Assembly (NCBI GenBank): GCA_022844485.1
Contig: JALHLQ010000011.1
Span: 1-64,000, forward strand
DNA from: Xanthobacteraceae bacterium
GTDB taxonomy: Bacteria; Pseudomonadota; Alphaproteobacteria; Rhizobiales; Xanthobacteraceae
Direction of reading: 5' to 3'
Length of the DNA: 64,000 nt
How positions within the stretch are numbered: the stretch's first letter is position 1; every line of letters starts with the position of its first letter. Below the pieces are notes generated by a model that saw only the letters and a list, made by a program, of their open reading frames with translations, searched no databases and was not told the origin of the DNA. The translations under genes were made by a program, and so were the position numbers. Shown piece after piece: positions 32,254 to 61,813 of the stretch.

Positions 32254-32469
32254 ATGCGCTATACGGTGGTTTTGGAGCAAGAAGAGGATGGTGGATACGT
32301 CGCCAGCGTGCCGGCAATGCCAGGATGCGTCAGCCAGGGCGACACCCGCGCGGAGGCGCTGAGCAACATTCGGGAAGCCATCGAACTTTACGTTGAGGAC
32401 TGCCGCGATGCTGGCGATCCAGTGCCAACCGAGGCAGGCAAGGAGTTTGTAGAAGTCGAGGCCGCGTAG
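32254..32469 (+). CDS. HicB-like antitoxin domain protein (orphan)
   Basis: A 71-residue protein MRYTVVLEQEEDGGYVASVPAMPGCVSQGDTRAEALSNIREAIELYVEDCRDAGDPVP, a typical HicB partial RNase-H fold. No C-terminal DNA-binding helix-turn-helix or ribbon-helix-helix is present. No hicA toxin ORF (about 60 residues, lysine-rich with a GSH motif) occurs on either side. It may be a solitary regulator or the remnant of a toxin-antitoxin pair. A clear AGGAG precedes the start. Confidence 0.85.
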   Translation: MRYTVVLEQEEDGGYVASVPAMPGCVSQGDTRAEALSNIREAIELYVEDCRDAGDPVPTEAGKEFVEVEAA

Positions 32470-32819
32470 GCCAACGTGTCCGCAGTGACGTGGCCAAGCT
32501 CCCAGGCAGCGCCCCCAATTTCTCCTGGCGGAGCCTGGAATTTCATTACGCGGATCAAGCCGGCGAGACCGAGCGCGGTTCTTCTCGGGCCAGTCAATCG
32601 ACCCGCGCTCGCCGGTGTTCGGCTTTACCGAGACCGGCAGCACGGCGGACTACATCGGCCGCGGGGTCGCCGATCATCGTCGGCAAGAACGGACATGCGA
32701 GCTTGAAGGGGATGCGGTCGATTGAGCGCTCGGCCTTGGGCGCGATGGCGCGAAGGCCGTAAAGCCCGGGCCGCGATTCTGAATTGCCCGCCGACGCACA
32801 GTGCGCTAGTTGTGGCGAA
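32470..32819. other. Region of gene debris, including a radC 3' fragment
   Basis: No credible full gene lies here. At 32673-32724 the plus strand encodes IIVGKNGHASLKGMRSIE, nearly identical to the RadC C-terminus [18 protein letters not shown]. In a different frame just before it, FSGQSIDPRSPVFGFTETGSTADYIGRG reads like part of a real protein that I cannot identify. This suggests fusion of decayed fragments. Confidence 0.6.
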
Positions 32820-32892
32820 GCGGGGCCTTCGACGGTCGCCCCGCCTTCTCAAGGCCCGCGGGCCCAAGCACCGTCTCCTTCGAAAGGAGGGG
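32820..32892 (+). ncRNA. chrB-like pseudoknotted leader RNA (orphan copy)
   Basis: P1 is GCGGGGC (32820-32826) with GCCCCGC (32838-32844). Its loop GACGGT (32831-32836) can pair with ACCGTC (32870-32875) as a pseudoknot. A GC-rich hairpin GGCCCGCGGGCC lies between. P2 is CTCCTT/AAGGAG (32875-32880 with 32884-32889) and hides the AGGAGG ribosome site. The sequence CCCAAGCACCGTCTCCT is shared exactly with the leader of the chromate operon at 42683. Downstream are a 9-codon ORF and a TauE/SafE permease, not chrB. Confidence 0.7.
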
Positions 32893-32895
32893 ACC

Positions 32896-32925
32896 ATGCC
32901 GGCTGAGCCGCTTTTCGTCGGATAA
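32896..32925 (+). CDS. Nine-codon ORF behind the leader RNA
   Basis: ATG CCG GCT GAG CCG CTT TTC GTC GGA TAA (MPAEPLFVG) begins 6 nt after an AGGAGGGG ribosome site held in the leader hairpin. It is either a tiny leader peptide or the stump of a lost chrB-like gene. The next gene on the strand is the TauE/SafE permease, 86 nt further. Confidence 0.4.
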   Translation: MPAEPLFVG

Positions 32926-33011
32926 CCACATCGCAGACAGGGGATATCGCGGCCTCCCCTCAAGATGGATTTCCCATCCAAGCGCTGCTCGCCTCGAATT
33001 GGGAGCGAGTC

Positions 33012-33761
33012 ATGGATGGTCTTGTCCTCGCATTGTTTCTCGGCGCAGCCTTTTTGGGCGGCTTCGCCTCCGGTCTCGCCGGATTCGCCATGGGGTTCGT
33101 GGTCGCCGGCATCTGGCTGCACATTCTTTCGCCCGTCCAGACAACCGCGCTGATCGTCGGCTATGGGCTCTGGACGCAGGGCTATGGCGTGTGGAAGCTG
33201 AGGCGCTCGCTGAGCCTTGGGGCCTTGGCGCCCTTCATCATCGGCGGCCTCGTCGGGATACCAATCGGGACCATGCTGCTCGCTCGTCTCGACCCGGCCT
33301 ATTTGCGCACGGGCGTGGGCCTGCTGCTGATCCTCTACGGCGCCTACGGTCTGACACAGCCGGCGTTCAAGCCGGTGAAGGCCGGAGTCGCCGCCGACAG
33401 TGTGGTTGGATTTCTGAACGGCCTGATTAGCGGGCTGACCGGGTTTCCAGGATTCGTCATCACTATCTGGTGCCAATTCCGCGGCTGGCCGAAAGATGTG
33501 CAGCGCGCGGTCTTTCAACCGGTCATGCTCGCGGCCATTGTTGCAAACGCGGTGTCGCTTGGCCTCGCCGGCGCGATCACCCGGGGCCTGATTGAGCTAT
33601 ATTTCCTGGGCCTTCCCGCGATGCTGGCCGGCTTGTGGATCGGGTTCAAGCTGTACGGAAAACTCGACGAGGCCGCCTTCCGCAAGCTGATCCTCACCCT
33701 GCTCCTGATGTCCGGGCTGGGCCTGGTCGCCGCGCAGGCGTGGCGGCTCGTGGGGCCGTAG
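33012..33761 (+). CDS. Sulfite exporter TauE/SafE family permease
   Basis: A 249-residue membrane protein with about eight helices. LGGFASGLAGFAMGFVVAGIWLHILSPVQTTALIVGYGLWTQGYGVWKLRR and the second-half VVGFLNGLISGLTGFPGFVITIWCQFRGWPKDVQRAVFQPVML are the two PF01925 repeats. Family members move sulfite, sulfoacetate or other organosulfonates or anions. The position downstream of a chrB-like leader suggests regulation by the same signal as chromate resistance, as an inference. GGGAGCGAGTC precedes the ATG. Confidence 0.87.
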   Translation: MDGLVLALFLGAAFLGGFASGLAGFAMGFVVAGIWLHILSPVQTTALIVGYGLWTQGYGVWKLRRSLSLGALAPFIIGGLVGIPIGTMLLARLDPAYLRTGVGLLLILYGAYGLTQPAFKPVKAGVAADSVVGFLNGLISGLTGFPGFVITIWCQFRGWPKDVQRAVFQPVMLAAIVANAVSLGLAGAITRGLIELYFLGLPAMLAGLWIGFKLYGKLDEAAFRKLILTLLLMSGLGLVAAQAWRLVGP

Positions 33762-42549: not shown

Positions 42550-42682
42550 GATGACGATCCTGCAACTGTCCGTGTGGCACGTTAGCGAAAGCGCGGAGTG
42601 CATGCGAGCGCCGCTTTGGCGAACGTGGCTTGCGCCCATCCGCCTTGTAAGCGTCGCCCAAGTCGGCTAGCCTTTCCCGCAT

Positions 42683-42749
42683 CGGGGCCGATGGCGGTCG
42701 CCCCGTGAGGCTCGCGCCCAAGCACCGTCTCCTCAATAGCGGAGGAGGC
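42683..42749 (+). ncRNA. chrB-type leader RNA of the chromate operon
   Basis: P1 is CGGGGC (42683-42688) with GCCCCG (42700-42705). The loop GGCGGT (42693-42698) pairs with ACCGTC (42724-42729) as a pseudoknot. A small hairpin GGC-TCGC-GCC follows P1. P2 is CTCCTC (42729-42734) with GAGGAG (42742-42747) and contains the ribosome site of chrB. Relative to the copy at 32820, a G-U replaces A-U in the pseudoknot, a compensated change. I recall related chrB-a/chrB-b motifs being described upstream of chrB genes in alphaproteobacteria, but could not check them here. Confidence 0.78.
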
Positions 42750-42751
42750 TC

Positions 42752-43582
42752 ATGTCTGCGAGCTACGCAATCTCTCCCTTCGATCTCTGGACCCTGATCG
42801 GCACGGCGGAAACCCCGAGCATCATCGATGTCCGCCGGCGCGCGGCGTTCGAATCCTCGCCGGGCCTTATCCCTTCCTCCCGCTGGCGCGATCCGGAGCG
42901 AGCCGGCGAATGGATCGGTTCGCTCGATCGCACAAGGCCGATTGTCCTAGCCTGCAAGGCGGGGCACGAGCTGAGTCAAATGGTTTCAGCCAGGCTACGG
43001 GCTGAGGGTCAGAGCGCGCAGATTCTGGCCGGCGGCGTGCAAGGCTGGATGGAAGCAAAGCTGCCCCTTGTTTCGCGCGACGCGCATGCGAGGTTCGCCG
43101 CCGCGCCGCGCATGTGGGTTACGCGCCGGCGGCCGAAGATCGACCGCGTTGCCTGCCCCTGGCTGATCCGCCGGTTCGTCGATCCGGAGGCGACGTTTCT
43201 GTTCGTGGATCCATCCGAAGTGCCGGCTGTCGCGCGCGAGACCGGCGCCATTCCGTTCGATATCGAAGGCGTGGAGCTGAGCCATGAGGGCGAGCGCTGC
43301 TCATTCGACACGCTGCTCAGACTACTCGGGCTCGAGAACGAACCGTCGCTTGCGCGGCTTGCGCTGATCGTGCGCGGCGCGGACACGGCGCGCTATGATC
43401 TTGCCGCTGAGGCCGCGGGCCTGCATGCCGTCTCTCTCGGGCTGTCTGTGCTGGCGCGGGACGACGATCATGGCCTCCTCCAGGGCGGCTTTGCCGTCTA
43501 CGATGCGCTGTTTGCCTGGATCCGGTTCGCCGCCGACGAGCGGCACAACTGGCCGGTGAAGGCCGTCGCGGGAGGACGCTAA
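42752..43582 (+). CDS. chrB: ChrB-domain chromate resistance protein with N-terminal rhodanese domain
   Basis: A 276-residue protein. Residues about 5-108 form a rhodanese-like domain (PSIIDVRRRAAFESS, VLACKAGHELSQMVSARLRAEG, GGVQGW) with the active-site Cys in CKAGHELS. Residues about 120-270 match the ChrB C-terminal domain (MWVTRRRPKIDRVACPWLIRRFVDPEATFLFVDPSEV). ChrB-type proteins act in chromate sensing or resistance. Its stop overlaps the start of chrA (TAATG), and a structured RNA covers its ribosome site, so control is probably translational. Confidence 0.9.
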   Translation: MSASYAISPFDLWTLIGTAETPSIIDVRRRAAFESSPGLIPSSRWRDPERAGEWIGSLDRTRPIVLACKAGHELSQMVSARLRAEGQSAQILAGGVQGWMEAKLPLVSRDAHARFAAAPRMWVTRRRPKIDRVACPWLIRRFVDPEATFLFVDPSEVPAVARETGAIPFDIEGVELSHEGERCSFDTLLRLLGLENEPSLARLALIVRGADTARYDLAAEAAGLHAVSLGLSVLARDDDHGLLQGGFAVYDALFAWIRFAADERHNWPVKAVAGGR

Positions 43583-44931
43583 TGGAGATCGCGCAGCAAG
43601 ATGCATCGACCGCCGTCGGCCGTGCCGACCGGCCTGGTCTGCGCGAGGCCTTGGGGGTCTGGCTCAAGGTCGGCCTGCTGTCGTTCGGCGGGCCGGCCGG
43701 GCAGATCGCGCTCATGCACCGCATCGTGGTCGAGGAGAAAAAGTGGATCGATGAAGCGCGCTATCTGCATGCCCTGAACTACTGCATGCTCTTGCCTGGC
43801 CCCGAGGCGCAGCAACTCGCGACCTATATCGGGTGGCTGATGCATCGCACCCTCGGCGGGCTCGCGGCGGGACTCCTGTTTATCTTGCCCGGCGCGCTGG
43901 TGATGCTGGGTCTGAGCGTCCTCTACGTCCTGGCCCGTGGCGTCGCGGTCGTCGAAGGCGCGCTGTTTGGGATCAAGGCGGCGGTGCTCGTCATCGTGGT
44001 CGAGGCGGTGATCCGCATCGGGCGCAAGGCCCTCAAGACGCGCTTGCTGGTCGGGCTCGCCGCCGGGGCTTTTGTCGCGATCTTCGTCTTCGCCCTGCCG
44101 TTTCCGCTGATCGTCATCGCCGCAGGGCTTGCCGGCTACTTCGTCGCCCAGTGGCGGGCGGAACGGATCGGGCTCGATGCCGCGCCTCCGCTACGGCGCG
44201 ACGCGCGCCCCGGGCGCTGGCGAACGGCCGCAACCGCCGTGCTGGTCGGGCTCGTCGTCTGGTGGGCGCCGGTCGCGCTCGCCGCGTTCACGCTGGGCGG
44301 GGACCATGTCCTGGTTTCTCTCGGGCTTTTCTTTTCGAAGCTCGCGGTCGTGAGCTTCGGCGGGGCCTATGCGCTGATGGCCTATATGGCGCAGCAGGCG
44401 GTCGAAACCCACGGCTGGCTGAGCGCGCGCGAAATGGTGGACGGGCTCGGCTTGGCCGAAACCACGCCCGGACCCCTGATCCTCGTATCGCAATTCGTTG
44501 GTTTCCTCGCGGCGCATCGCGAGGCCGCGCCCTTCGATCCGCTCACCGCCGCCGTGCTCGGCGCGGCCATGACGACTTGGACGATCTTCGCCCCGTCTTT
44601 TCTGTGGATCTTTGCCGGCGCGCCCTTCGTGGAAGATTTGCGTGGAAACCGCCGTCTTGCCGGCGCGCTCTCGGCCATTACCGCGGCGGTGGTCGGCGTC
44701 ATCCTGAACCTGGCCGTCTGGTTCACGCTGCATGTCCTGTTCGCGCACGTCACCGAGGTCGAGACCGGGCCGATCCGGTGGTTTCGCGTCGATTTCGCCA
44801 GCATGGACATGGCCGCGGCCGTCCTCGCCGGCGTCGCGGCGGGGCTCGTGTTCGGCTTGCACTTCGGCTTGATCCGGACCGTCGTGGTCATGGCGGCGCT
44901 GGGGATCGCGTGGCGTTTCACAATGAATTAG
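43582..44931 (+). CDS. chrA: Chromate efflux transporter ChrA (long chain)
   Basis: A 449-residue CHR-superfamily protein with two homologous halves (about 20-195 and 225-445) and 10-13 helices. Family motifs are VGLLSFGGPAGQIALMHRIVVEEKKWIDEARYLHALNYCMLLPGPEAQQLATYIGW and the second-half KLAVVSFGGAYALMAYMAQQAVETHGWLSAREMVDGLGLAETTPGPLILVSQFVGF. It exports chromate. It is translationally coupled to chrB. Confidence 0.94.
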   Translation: MEIAQQDASTAVGRADRPGLREALGVWLKVGLLSFGGPAGQIALMHRIVVEEKKWIDEARYLHALNYCMLLPGPEAQQLATYIGWLMHRTLGGLAAGLLFILPGALVMLGLSVLYVLARGVAVVEGALFGIKAAVLVIVVEAVIRIGRKALKTRLLVGLAAGAFVAIFVFALPFPLIVIAAGLAGYFVAQWRAERIGLDAAPPLRRDARPGRWRTAATAVLVGLVVWWAPVALAAFTLGGDHVLVSLGLFFSKLAVVSFGGAYALMAYMAQQAVETHGWLSAREMVDGLGLAETTPGPLILVSQFVGFLAAHREAAPFDPLTAAVLGAAMTTWTIFAPSFLWIFAGAPFVEDLRGNRRLAGALSAITAAVVGVILNLAVWFTLHVLFAHVTEVETGPIRWFRVDFASMDMAAAVLAGVAAGLVFGLHFGLIRTVVVMAALGIAWRFTMN

Positions 44932-61338: not shown

Positions 61339-61499
61339 CGCATCTCCCATTTGCATCACGGCCTCTCGGCCGAGTTGATGAACCAACAGGCGCCGCGCAC
61401 GCACACGGCAAGAACGCGCCGCGAGAGTGACGTCACCTGACTGATGCCTTGGTCCGGATGGGAAATATCCCGTCCGCACGCCCGGCAAAGAAGGACAAG

Positions 61500-61700
61500 C
61501 CTCTTCGGTTACGCGGCAACCCGCAGTACCAAAAAAGCCCGCTCCGTCGTTGCTTTAAGCCGCGTCGCCCGTTGAGAACGGGCTTTGCCGGTTCGCCTCC
61601 GGCTGCCGGTCGCGGGTGCAAGAAAGGCAGATCCCTTTCTTAGGCGGCTGTCCGGCCTCTTGTCCGGATGCCCACCGACCGACACACGGCCACAGGCACG
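61500..61700 (-). promoter_or_regulatory. Attenuator-like leader of the decarboxylase gene, speF-type candidate
   Basis: Read on the minus strand: a hairpin AAGAAAGGGATCTGCCTTTCTT, then GCACCCGCGACCGGCAGCCGGAGGCG. Two mutually exclusive stems follow: GCCCGTT/AACGGGC (61567-61573 with 61577-61583) and AAAGCCCG/CGGGCTTTTTT (61579-61586 with 61531-61541). The second ends in a T6 run and is a terminator. Alphaproteobacterial ODC genes are known to carry a structured speF leader; membership is not verified here. Intergenic length of about 470 nt supports a long leader. Confidence 0.6.
61531..61586 (-). terminator. Conditional terminator in the decarboxylase leader
   Basis: On the minus strand AAAGCCCG pairs with CGGGCTTT, followed by more T (TTTTTT in total). 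The 5' arm is shared with the competing hairpin GCCCGTT-CTC-AACGGGC. It is about 190 nt upstream of the decarboxylase start. Confidence 0.55.
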
Positions 61701-61813
61701 TGCGAAATTGGGCAATCGTCAAATAAGTCATTCGAGCCGGTCATGCAAGAGCGCCGGACACGGACACCGAATTCTAAACCGTTTCTTAAGATGTCGAGCC
61801 GAAACGCGACGCC

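Follow-up and report, generated by a model that had tools for sequence, protein, structure and literature searches.

The gene for a TauE/SafE permease in the window, the stretch of 64,000 nucleotides analysed here, is preceded by two chrB-type RNAs in tandem, in the order promoter, RNA-A, mini-ORF, RNA-B, tauE. From the sequence we consider it probable that these are two serial candidate switches of the chrB class which act on one transcript, forming a bi-mechanism tandem ON switch for the induction of an exporter. This reading draws on both RNAs, the conservation of the tandem, the covariation of the pseudoknot, P2 and start region, a promoter at a fixed position and a constraint to five codons on the mini-ORF. 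All coordinates refer to the plus strand unless stated otherwise.

Two chrB-type RNAs upstream of the permease gene

The permease (33012-33761, 249 aa, N-terminus Met-Asp-Gly) matches Pfam PF01925 in a profile search with 83.1 bits against a cut-off of 32.6 (E 3e-23), covering positions 2-236 of 237. Directly before it stands the strongest chrB-type RNA that the Rfam scan finds in the window. This RNA, RNA-B (32939-32988), scores 58.7 bits in cmscan against chrB-b RF03086 (E 1.6e-9 for the window) and belongs to that family by a score above the gathering threshold of 36.5. It contains P1 (32939-32944/32955-32960), P2 (32964-32968/32974-32978) and a pseudoknot of GCGGC 32949-32953 with GCUGC 32984-32988.

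RNA-A (32820-32897) is a chrB-a-like pseudoknotted leader, recognised by the covariance model R2 and by covariation of its pseudoknot. The elements that an earlier, sequence-only reading had described for this leader are present as written: P1 formed by CGGGGC/GCCCCG (32821-32826/32838-32843), a loop GACGGU (32831-32836) that pairs with ACCGUC (32870-32875), the GC hairpin P2 formed by GGCC/GGCC (32853-32856/32861-32864) and an SD-hiding stem (32873-32881/32886-32894). The core CCCAAGCACCGTCTCCT is indeed identical in the leaders at 32820 and 42683, and the sequence also contains the mini-ORF MPAEPLFVG (32896-32925, 9 codons) with 86 nt between its stop and the permease ATG at 33012. The same reading took RNA-A for an orphan leader that drives the permease alone. 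It had missed RNA-B, which intervenes and abuts the permease, so the arrangement is a tandem and the RNA-A leader is not an orphan.

The pseudoknot of RNA-A keeps its pairs in 18/18 sequences, and the changes are compensatory: one pair occurs as A-U in 8, G-C in 6 and G-U in 4 of the sequences, and another in G-C, G-U and A-U versions. R2 describes the GC-rich RNA-A subtype and was trained on other genomes only; an earlier model, R1, had included window sequences, and R2 was made without them for that reason. The SD-hairpin pairs of alignment A4 were misaligned and hence excluded from the models. A search of the 64-kb window with R2 finds RNA-A (84 bits, E 1.7e-24), the chrBA leader (60 bits, E 4.7e-17) and RNA-B (23.8 bits, E 9e-6), which places all three in one superfamily. 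The covariance-model search that had been proposed as a check on the leader thus returns it with R2 and, below the gathering threshold of 36.5, with Rfam chrB-b RF03086 (29.1 bits, E 5.6e-4 in an 801-base search); chrB-a RF03078 gives no match to RNA-A at E up to 10 in that 801-base sub-region. Judged by these scores and its anatomy, RNA-A is a GC-rich relative of chrB-a and chrB-b that lies under both Rfam thresholds and has the defining anatomy.

The leader of the chrBA operon (42679-42754) scores 42.0 bits against chrB-a RF03078, just under the gathering threshold of 43.9, and 34.5 bits against chrB-b. Its sequence and the R2 alignment display the chrB-a layout, with P1, a loop-to-3' pseudoknot, P2 and an SD hairpin right before the start codon. 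It is followed by chrB (42752-43582; rhodanese domain PF00581 plus ChrB_C PF09828, E 8.8e-46) and by chrA of the chromate-transporter family (43582-44931; PF02417, E 6.8e-72; TIGR00937). The ChrB of the window is a fusion of a ChrE-like rhodanese with ChrB_C, a possible link to sulfur.

The promoter of the tandem (32784-32812) consists of a -35 element TTGCCC (32784-32789), a 17 nt spacer and a -10 element TAGTTG (32807-32812). Upstream of P1, TTG is found at 37-38 nt in 20/22 tandem copies (background 0.7 per offset) and TA at 14-15 nt, again in 20/22 (background below one); both offsets are also present in most chrB-linked copies of RNA-A. A generic sigma-70 scan did not flag this promoter, though it is kept by offset in relatives, and a generic terminator scan of the window region flagged no terminator. 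The conserved offsets imply that the tandem transcript should start at P1 of RNA-A (about 32819-32820). The gap from RNA-A to RNA-B is too short for a second promoter, so RNA-A sits on the permease mRNA; together, promoter position and short gap lead us to reject the idea that RNA-A is not part of the permease transcript.

Some neighbouring features were recorded along the way. Upstream of the promoter, a small ORF at about 32254-32469 (MRYTVVLEQEEDGGYVASVPAMPGC...) looks like a HicB-type antitoxin and is followed at 32480-32780 by what resembles decayed coding sequence. On the minus strand, Rfam identifies a speF leader (61388-61525, 45.8 bits) adjoining the Alphaproteobacterial sRNA ar45 (61533-61713, 61.3 bits).

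Conservation of the tandem and pairing of the permease start region

In the family of the window organism, Xanthobacteraceae, chrB-b is found in 71/250 genomes and chrB-a in 76/250. Related soil and water bacteria retain the pair of RNAs, in most cases separated by a mini-gene of five codons; the relatives named here (Rhodoplanes, Pseudorhodoplanes, Pseudolabrys, Bradyrhizobium) are all Xanthobacteraceae. We count about 20 loci from several genera in which the tandem precedes tauE at a fixed promoter distance, so that the conservation of the leader before TauE/SafE genes, another check proposed earlier, is borne out. The distance to the tauE start is about 190-280 nt for RNA-A and about 75 nt for RNA-B, both in the nearest tauE relatives (67-75% identity) and in the more distantly related Pseudolabrys loci. 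Among 83 distinct copies of RNA-A, 57 lead directly into a long ORF, mostly chrB and in a few cases chrA or MFS, and about 20 precede the mini-ORF, RNA-B and tauE. An order-wide search with the RNA-A model gave few and weaker matches beyond the family.

Several Pseudolabrys-type loci carry the tandem tauE followed by RNA-A-chrB-chrA, and in four loci (L065, L161, L179, L255) two consecutive tauE genes, the second with RNA-A, mini-ORF and RNA-B, precede RNA-A-chrB-chrA. RNA-A also stands directly before MFS transporter genes without chrB (L316 in G007, L320 in G078, L311 in G051). The chrB-b RNAs lie 10-40 nt before genes for tauE, chrB, chrA, MFS, MatE, DUF1259, DUF3182, DUF6815 and others; the DUF6815 protein (comp1 loci L105, L148) has about 360 aa and is ATP-grasp-like by appearance. 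This regulon, with its ATP-grasp-like DUF6815, suggests that the ligand is probably exported and independent of ChrB. One genome with chrB-b before DUF6815 (G179) has no ChrB and could help to find the ligand.

The expression platform of RNA-B extends over 32974-33019. The switching strand CCAUCCA (32974-32980), made up of the 3' arm of P2 and the CA that follows, can form 7/7 pairs with UGGAUGG (33013-33019) at the start of the permease gene, and the SD GGGAG (33001-33005) lies within the hairpin CUCGC/GCGAG (32988-32992/33005-33009). Over 34 sequences the start-region pairing is 92.9% paired, a value equalled in 0/500 column shuffles, and it drops to 28-40% when slid by one column. The switching strand covaries with both the 5' arm of P2 and the start region AUGGAYGG, and one strand covarying with two partners implies that the two pairings are mutually exclusive. 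Part of the start-pairing covariation only separates tauE-type leaders (AU) from the others (GC), which leaves fewer independent events than the cell counts suggest; at the pair concerned, an A-C mismatch occurs in a few tauE loci. In the mixed chrB-b alignment A3, MAFFT misplaced P1, and the count was therefore confined to pairs of P2 and the start region.

The pairing also leaves a mark on proteins. A Met-Asp start is found in 10/10 ChrB orthologues that follow chrB-b leaders and in 0/92 that follow chrB-a leaders, the start codon being read as Met or Val, and the second codon thus follows the type of RNA and not the protein. tauE was left out as a control for this count because a strict regular expression had scored some tauE loci as 'no RNA-B'. 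At one locus (L189 in G016) a chrB-a-type RNA stands directly before tauE; the permease there starts with a ChrB-like MLATTP... and not with MDG, so the N-terminus again matches the type of leader.

The mini-ORF and terminator-like hairpin of RNA-A

The ORF behind the RNA-A ribosome site has exactly 5 codons in 17/20 tandem loci, set against a mean of 0.66 and a maximum of 5 in 5000 shuffles, and the five-codon peak is missing from the other two reading frames. The effective number is below 20 as the loci are related; sequences and stop codons are nonetheless diverse, with TAA, TGA and TAG all in use and peptides that vary between MCSGP, MFAGP, MAAGP, MALAD, MLVAH, MTSVG, LLLTN and MATAG. With its 9 codons, the ORF of the window departs from the five-codon form that is usual in relatives.

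In the closest relatives the switching strand of RNA-A (5' arm) and the mini-ORF (3' arm) form a long hairpin, and a U-run follows it (GGGCCCAAGCAC ... GUGCUCUGGGCCC-UAAUUUUUUU). The duplex energy of this hairpin has z of about -3 to -5 relative to shuffles. The partners change together in two loci, with AGGCCCA/UGGGCCU at L122 (G070) and AGCCCA/UGGGCU at L151 (G186). For the terminator stem, formal covariation amounts to little: 1 double-change pair, a level reached by 81/500 shuffles. A dinucleotide-shuffle test of the P2 arm against the mini-ORF was uninformative because the palindrome GGGCCC outlasts shuffling, and duplex energies were used in its place.

The first-layer terminator, clear in close relatives, is weak in the window, where a possible alternative hairpin at 32858-32916 folds as GCGGGCC ... 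GGCugagCCGC followed by UUUUC and its duplex energy is not above that of shuffles (z -0.4, P 0.29). Nine codons, a U-run of UUUU and pairing at chance level indicate that in the window organism this first layer may have changed or be in decay. The sequence-only reading had proposed translational control through release of the ribosome site: the SD-hiding stem is present, but in the closest relatives RNA-A also forms the terminator-like hairpin, and such release by itself does not account for RNA-A there.

Model of control, alternatives and known systems

In the tandem-switch model that we favour, the transcript would begin just before P1 of RNA-A and both RNAs would work by the same logic. The switching strand would be the 3' arm of P2, running on into ...CCAAGC.... 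With ligand present it would be kept in the aptamer by P2 and the pseudoknot, leaving the downstream region free; with ligand absent it would pair downstream. In RNA-B the strand would then lie on the permease start region AUGGAYGG and block initiation until ligand frees the start codon. In RNA-A it would pair with the mini-ORF region, forming a long hairpin that covers both ribosome site and mini-ORF and that, with the U-run that follows in close relatives, should terminate transcription; ligand would prevent the hairpin or terminator and open the mini-ORF ribosome site. Control would thus be exerted first on transcription, along with translation of the mini-ORF, and then on translation of the permease. 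That the ligand-bound state is ON is suggested by the exclusivity of the pairings. We infer premature termination and a role of the mini-ORF. The sequence-only reading is borne out in that RNA-A is a structured chrB-type leader which stands before a TauE/SafE gene and is kept there in relatives. A signal shared with chrBA, which it had also suggested, is likely and would presumably be one common ligand. Chromate or a sulfur oxyanion are candidates by guess only.

A more specific version of the model is conceivable, and we hold it tentatively. RNA-A and the five-codon ORF may form a riboswitch-gated antitermination device in which a minimal ORF would double as the 3' arm of an intrinsic terminator and have its ribosome site exposed by the ligand. 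A single ribosome, translating five codons as far as a stop codon at the stem base, would then open the terminator, a second aptamer of the same class would gate the start codon of the exporter, and the RNA would dictate the N-terminal Met-Asp-Gly in unrelated proteins.

Three other explanations were weighed against the tandem switch. RNA-A could be a dead remnant of a chrB gene deleted between two leaders, left with vestigial codons while RNA-B alone regulates. This is unlikely, even though the codons after RNA-A in one relative (G041, L116) read LLAARLSIS, similar to a ChrB N-terminus (compare MLAAPFAISPQDLW in L319, and MLAAPFAIS), the window peptide MPAEPLFVG and the peptides MLLAD and MLVAH loosely resemble that N-terminus too, and the ORF and hairpin of the window depart from the conserved form. 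Against it stand about 20 loci in several genera with a fixed promoter, a fixed ORF length and varying stop codons; nor is there space for a separate promoter before RNA-B, which puts RNA-A on the permease mRNA. The dead fragment had also been named by the sequence-only reading, as an outcome that would overturn it, and it is countered by the conserved promoter at -38/-15 that runs into the leader. As the tandem is kept in relatives, we reject a dead chrB fragment as the main explanation. A vestigial origin of RNA-A is plausible and loss of its function is not, at least in relatives: the tandem would have arisen by loss of chrB between its own leader and the chrB-b leader of tauE, the stub shrinking to the minimal ORF. 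In one genome (L102, G013, minus strand) the RNA-A at index 3855 is followed by a chrB whose sixth codon is a stop (MAALS*SFSISPE); this five-codon ORF inside chrB is a possible snapshot of how the mini-ORF originated, or an error.

That the RNAs are binding sites of the ChrB protein, for autogenous and trans control, and not small-ligand riboswitches is improbable in our view. ChrB is a known chromate-responsive DNA-binding regulator (PMC3817168) and is present in 27/31 genomes that carry the RNAs, which would suit such a role. However, G007 (99% complete) has an intact tandem and no ChrB, and ChrB is likewise missing from G101 (94%, tandem) and G179 (100%, chrB-b before another gene); relatives that bear the tandem without ChrB disfavour ChrB as sensor or effector. 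Least probable is a mini-ORF that encodes a sensing leader peptide, a stalling attenuator that would be the true sensor of RNA-A: its length is strictly held at 5 codons, but its sequence differs across groups, the constraint falling on length and pairing, and without sequence conservation there is no common peptide or codon to be read.

As far as the accessible literature goes, the tandem, the five-codon ORF, the tauE regulon and the start-codon platform, all proposed here from sequence, appear to be new. The literature search, with the original NAR 2017 description outside its scope, returned no mention of chrB-a or chrB-b; that study is reportedly the original description of 224 candidate RNAs. 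The chrB RNAs are orphan candidates, for which the start-codon platform supplies a direct and testable model of switching. The tandem with its five-codon ORF would be an unusually compact device for combined control of transcription and translation, and a leader that fixes the first residues of unrelated proteins would be a simple and general marker for further members.

With chrB-b RF03086, RNA-B shares P1, P2, CCAAGC..CUGC and the pseudoknot, but that model ends before the expression platform and holds neither the AUGGAYGG pairing nor the tauE regulon nor the tandem use. RNA-A and the chrBA leader have in common with chrB-a RF03078 the layout of P1, pseudoknot, P2, SD hairpin and start codon; they differ as a GC-rich subtype that has ACCGUC where chrB-a has AUCGC, and RNA-A of the tandem precedes a five-codon ORF instead of chrB. 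The nearest working precedent is the SAM-II/SAM-V tandem, in which control of transcription by a first aptamer with a terminator is followed by control of translation by a second over the ribosome site (PMC9481103). The likeness lies in two related aptamers in series, whereas here the RNA class is another and a conserved mini-ORF separates the two. Short ORFs upstream of the gated gene are also known, as in the riboswitch-controlled uORFs of the M. tuberculosis B12 switches (PMC11260477) and in the SAM-II switch of S. meliloti metA with a terminator between two AUGs (PMC9373788), where terminator and translation are combined as well. In contrast to those systems, the short ORF here has a set length of five codons, serves as the 3' arm of the switch hairpin and has a second switch downstream. 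Finally, orphan RNAs of ykkC subtype 2d stand before TauE/EamA genes (PMC7266159) and are likewise an orphan class at TauE-type exporters; Rfam scans of the window and sub-region gave no match to a ykkC-type RNA, and the chrB class is described separately, by models of its own.
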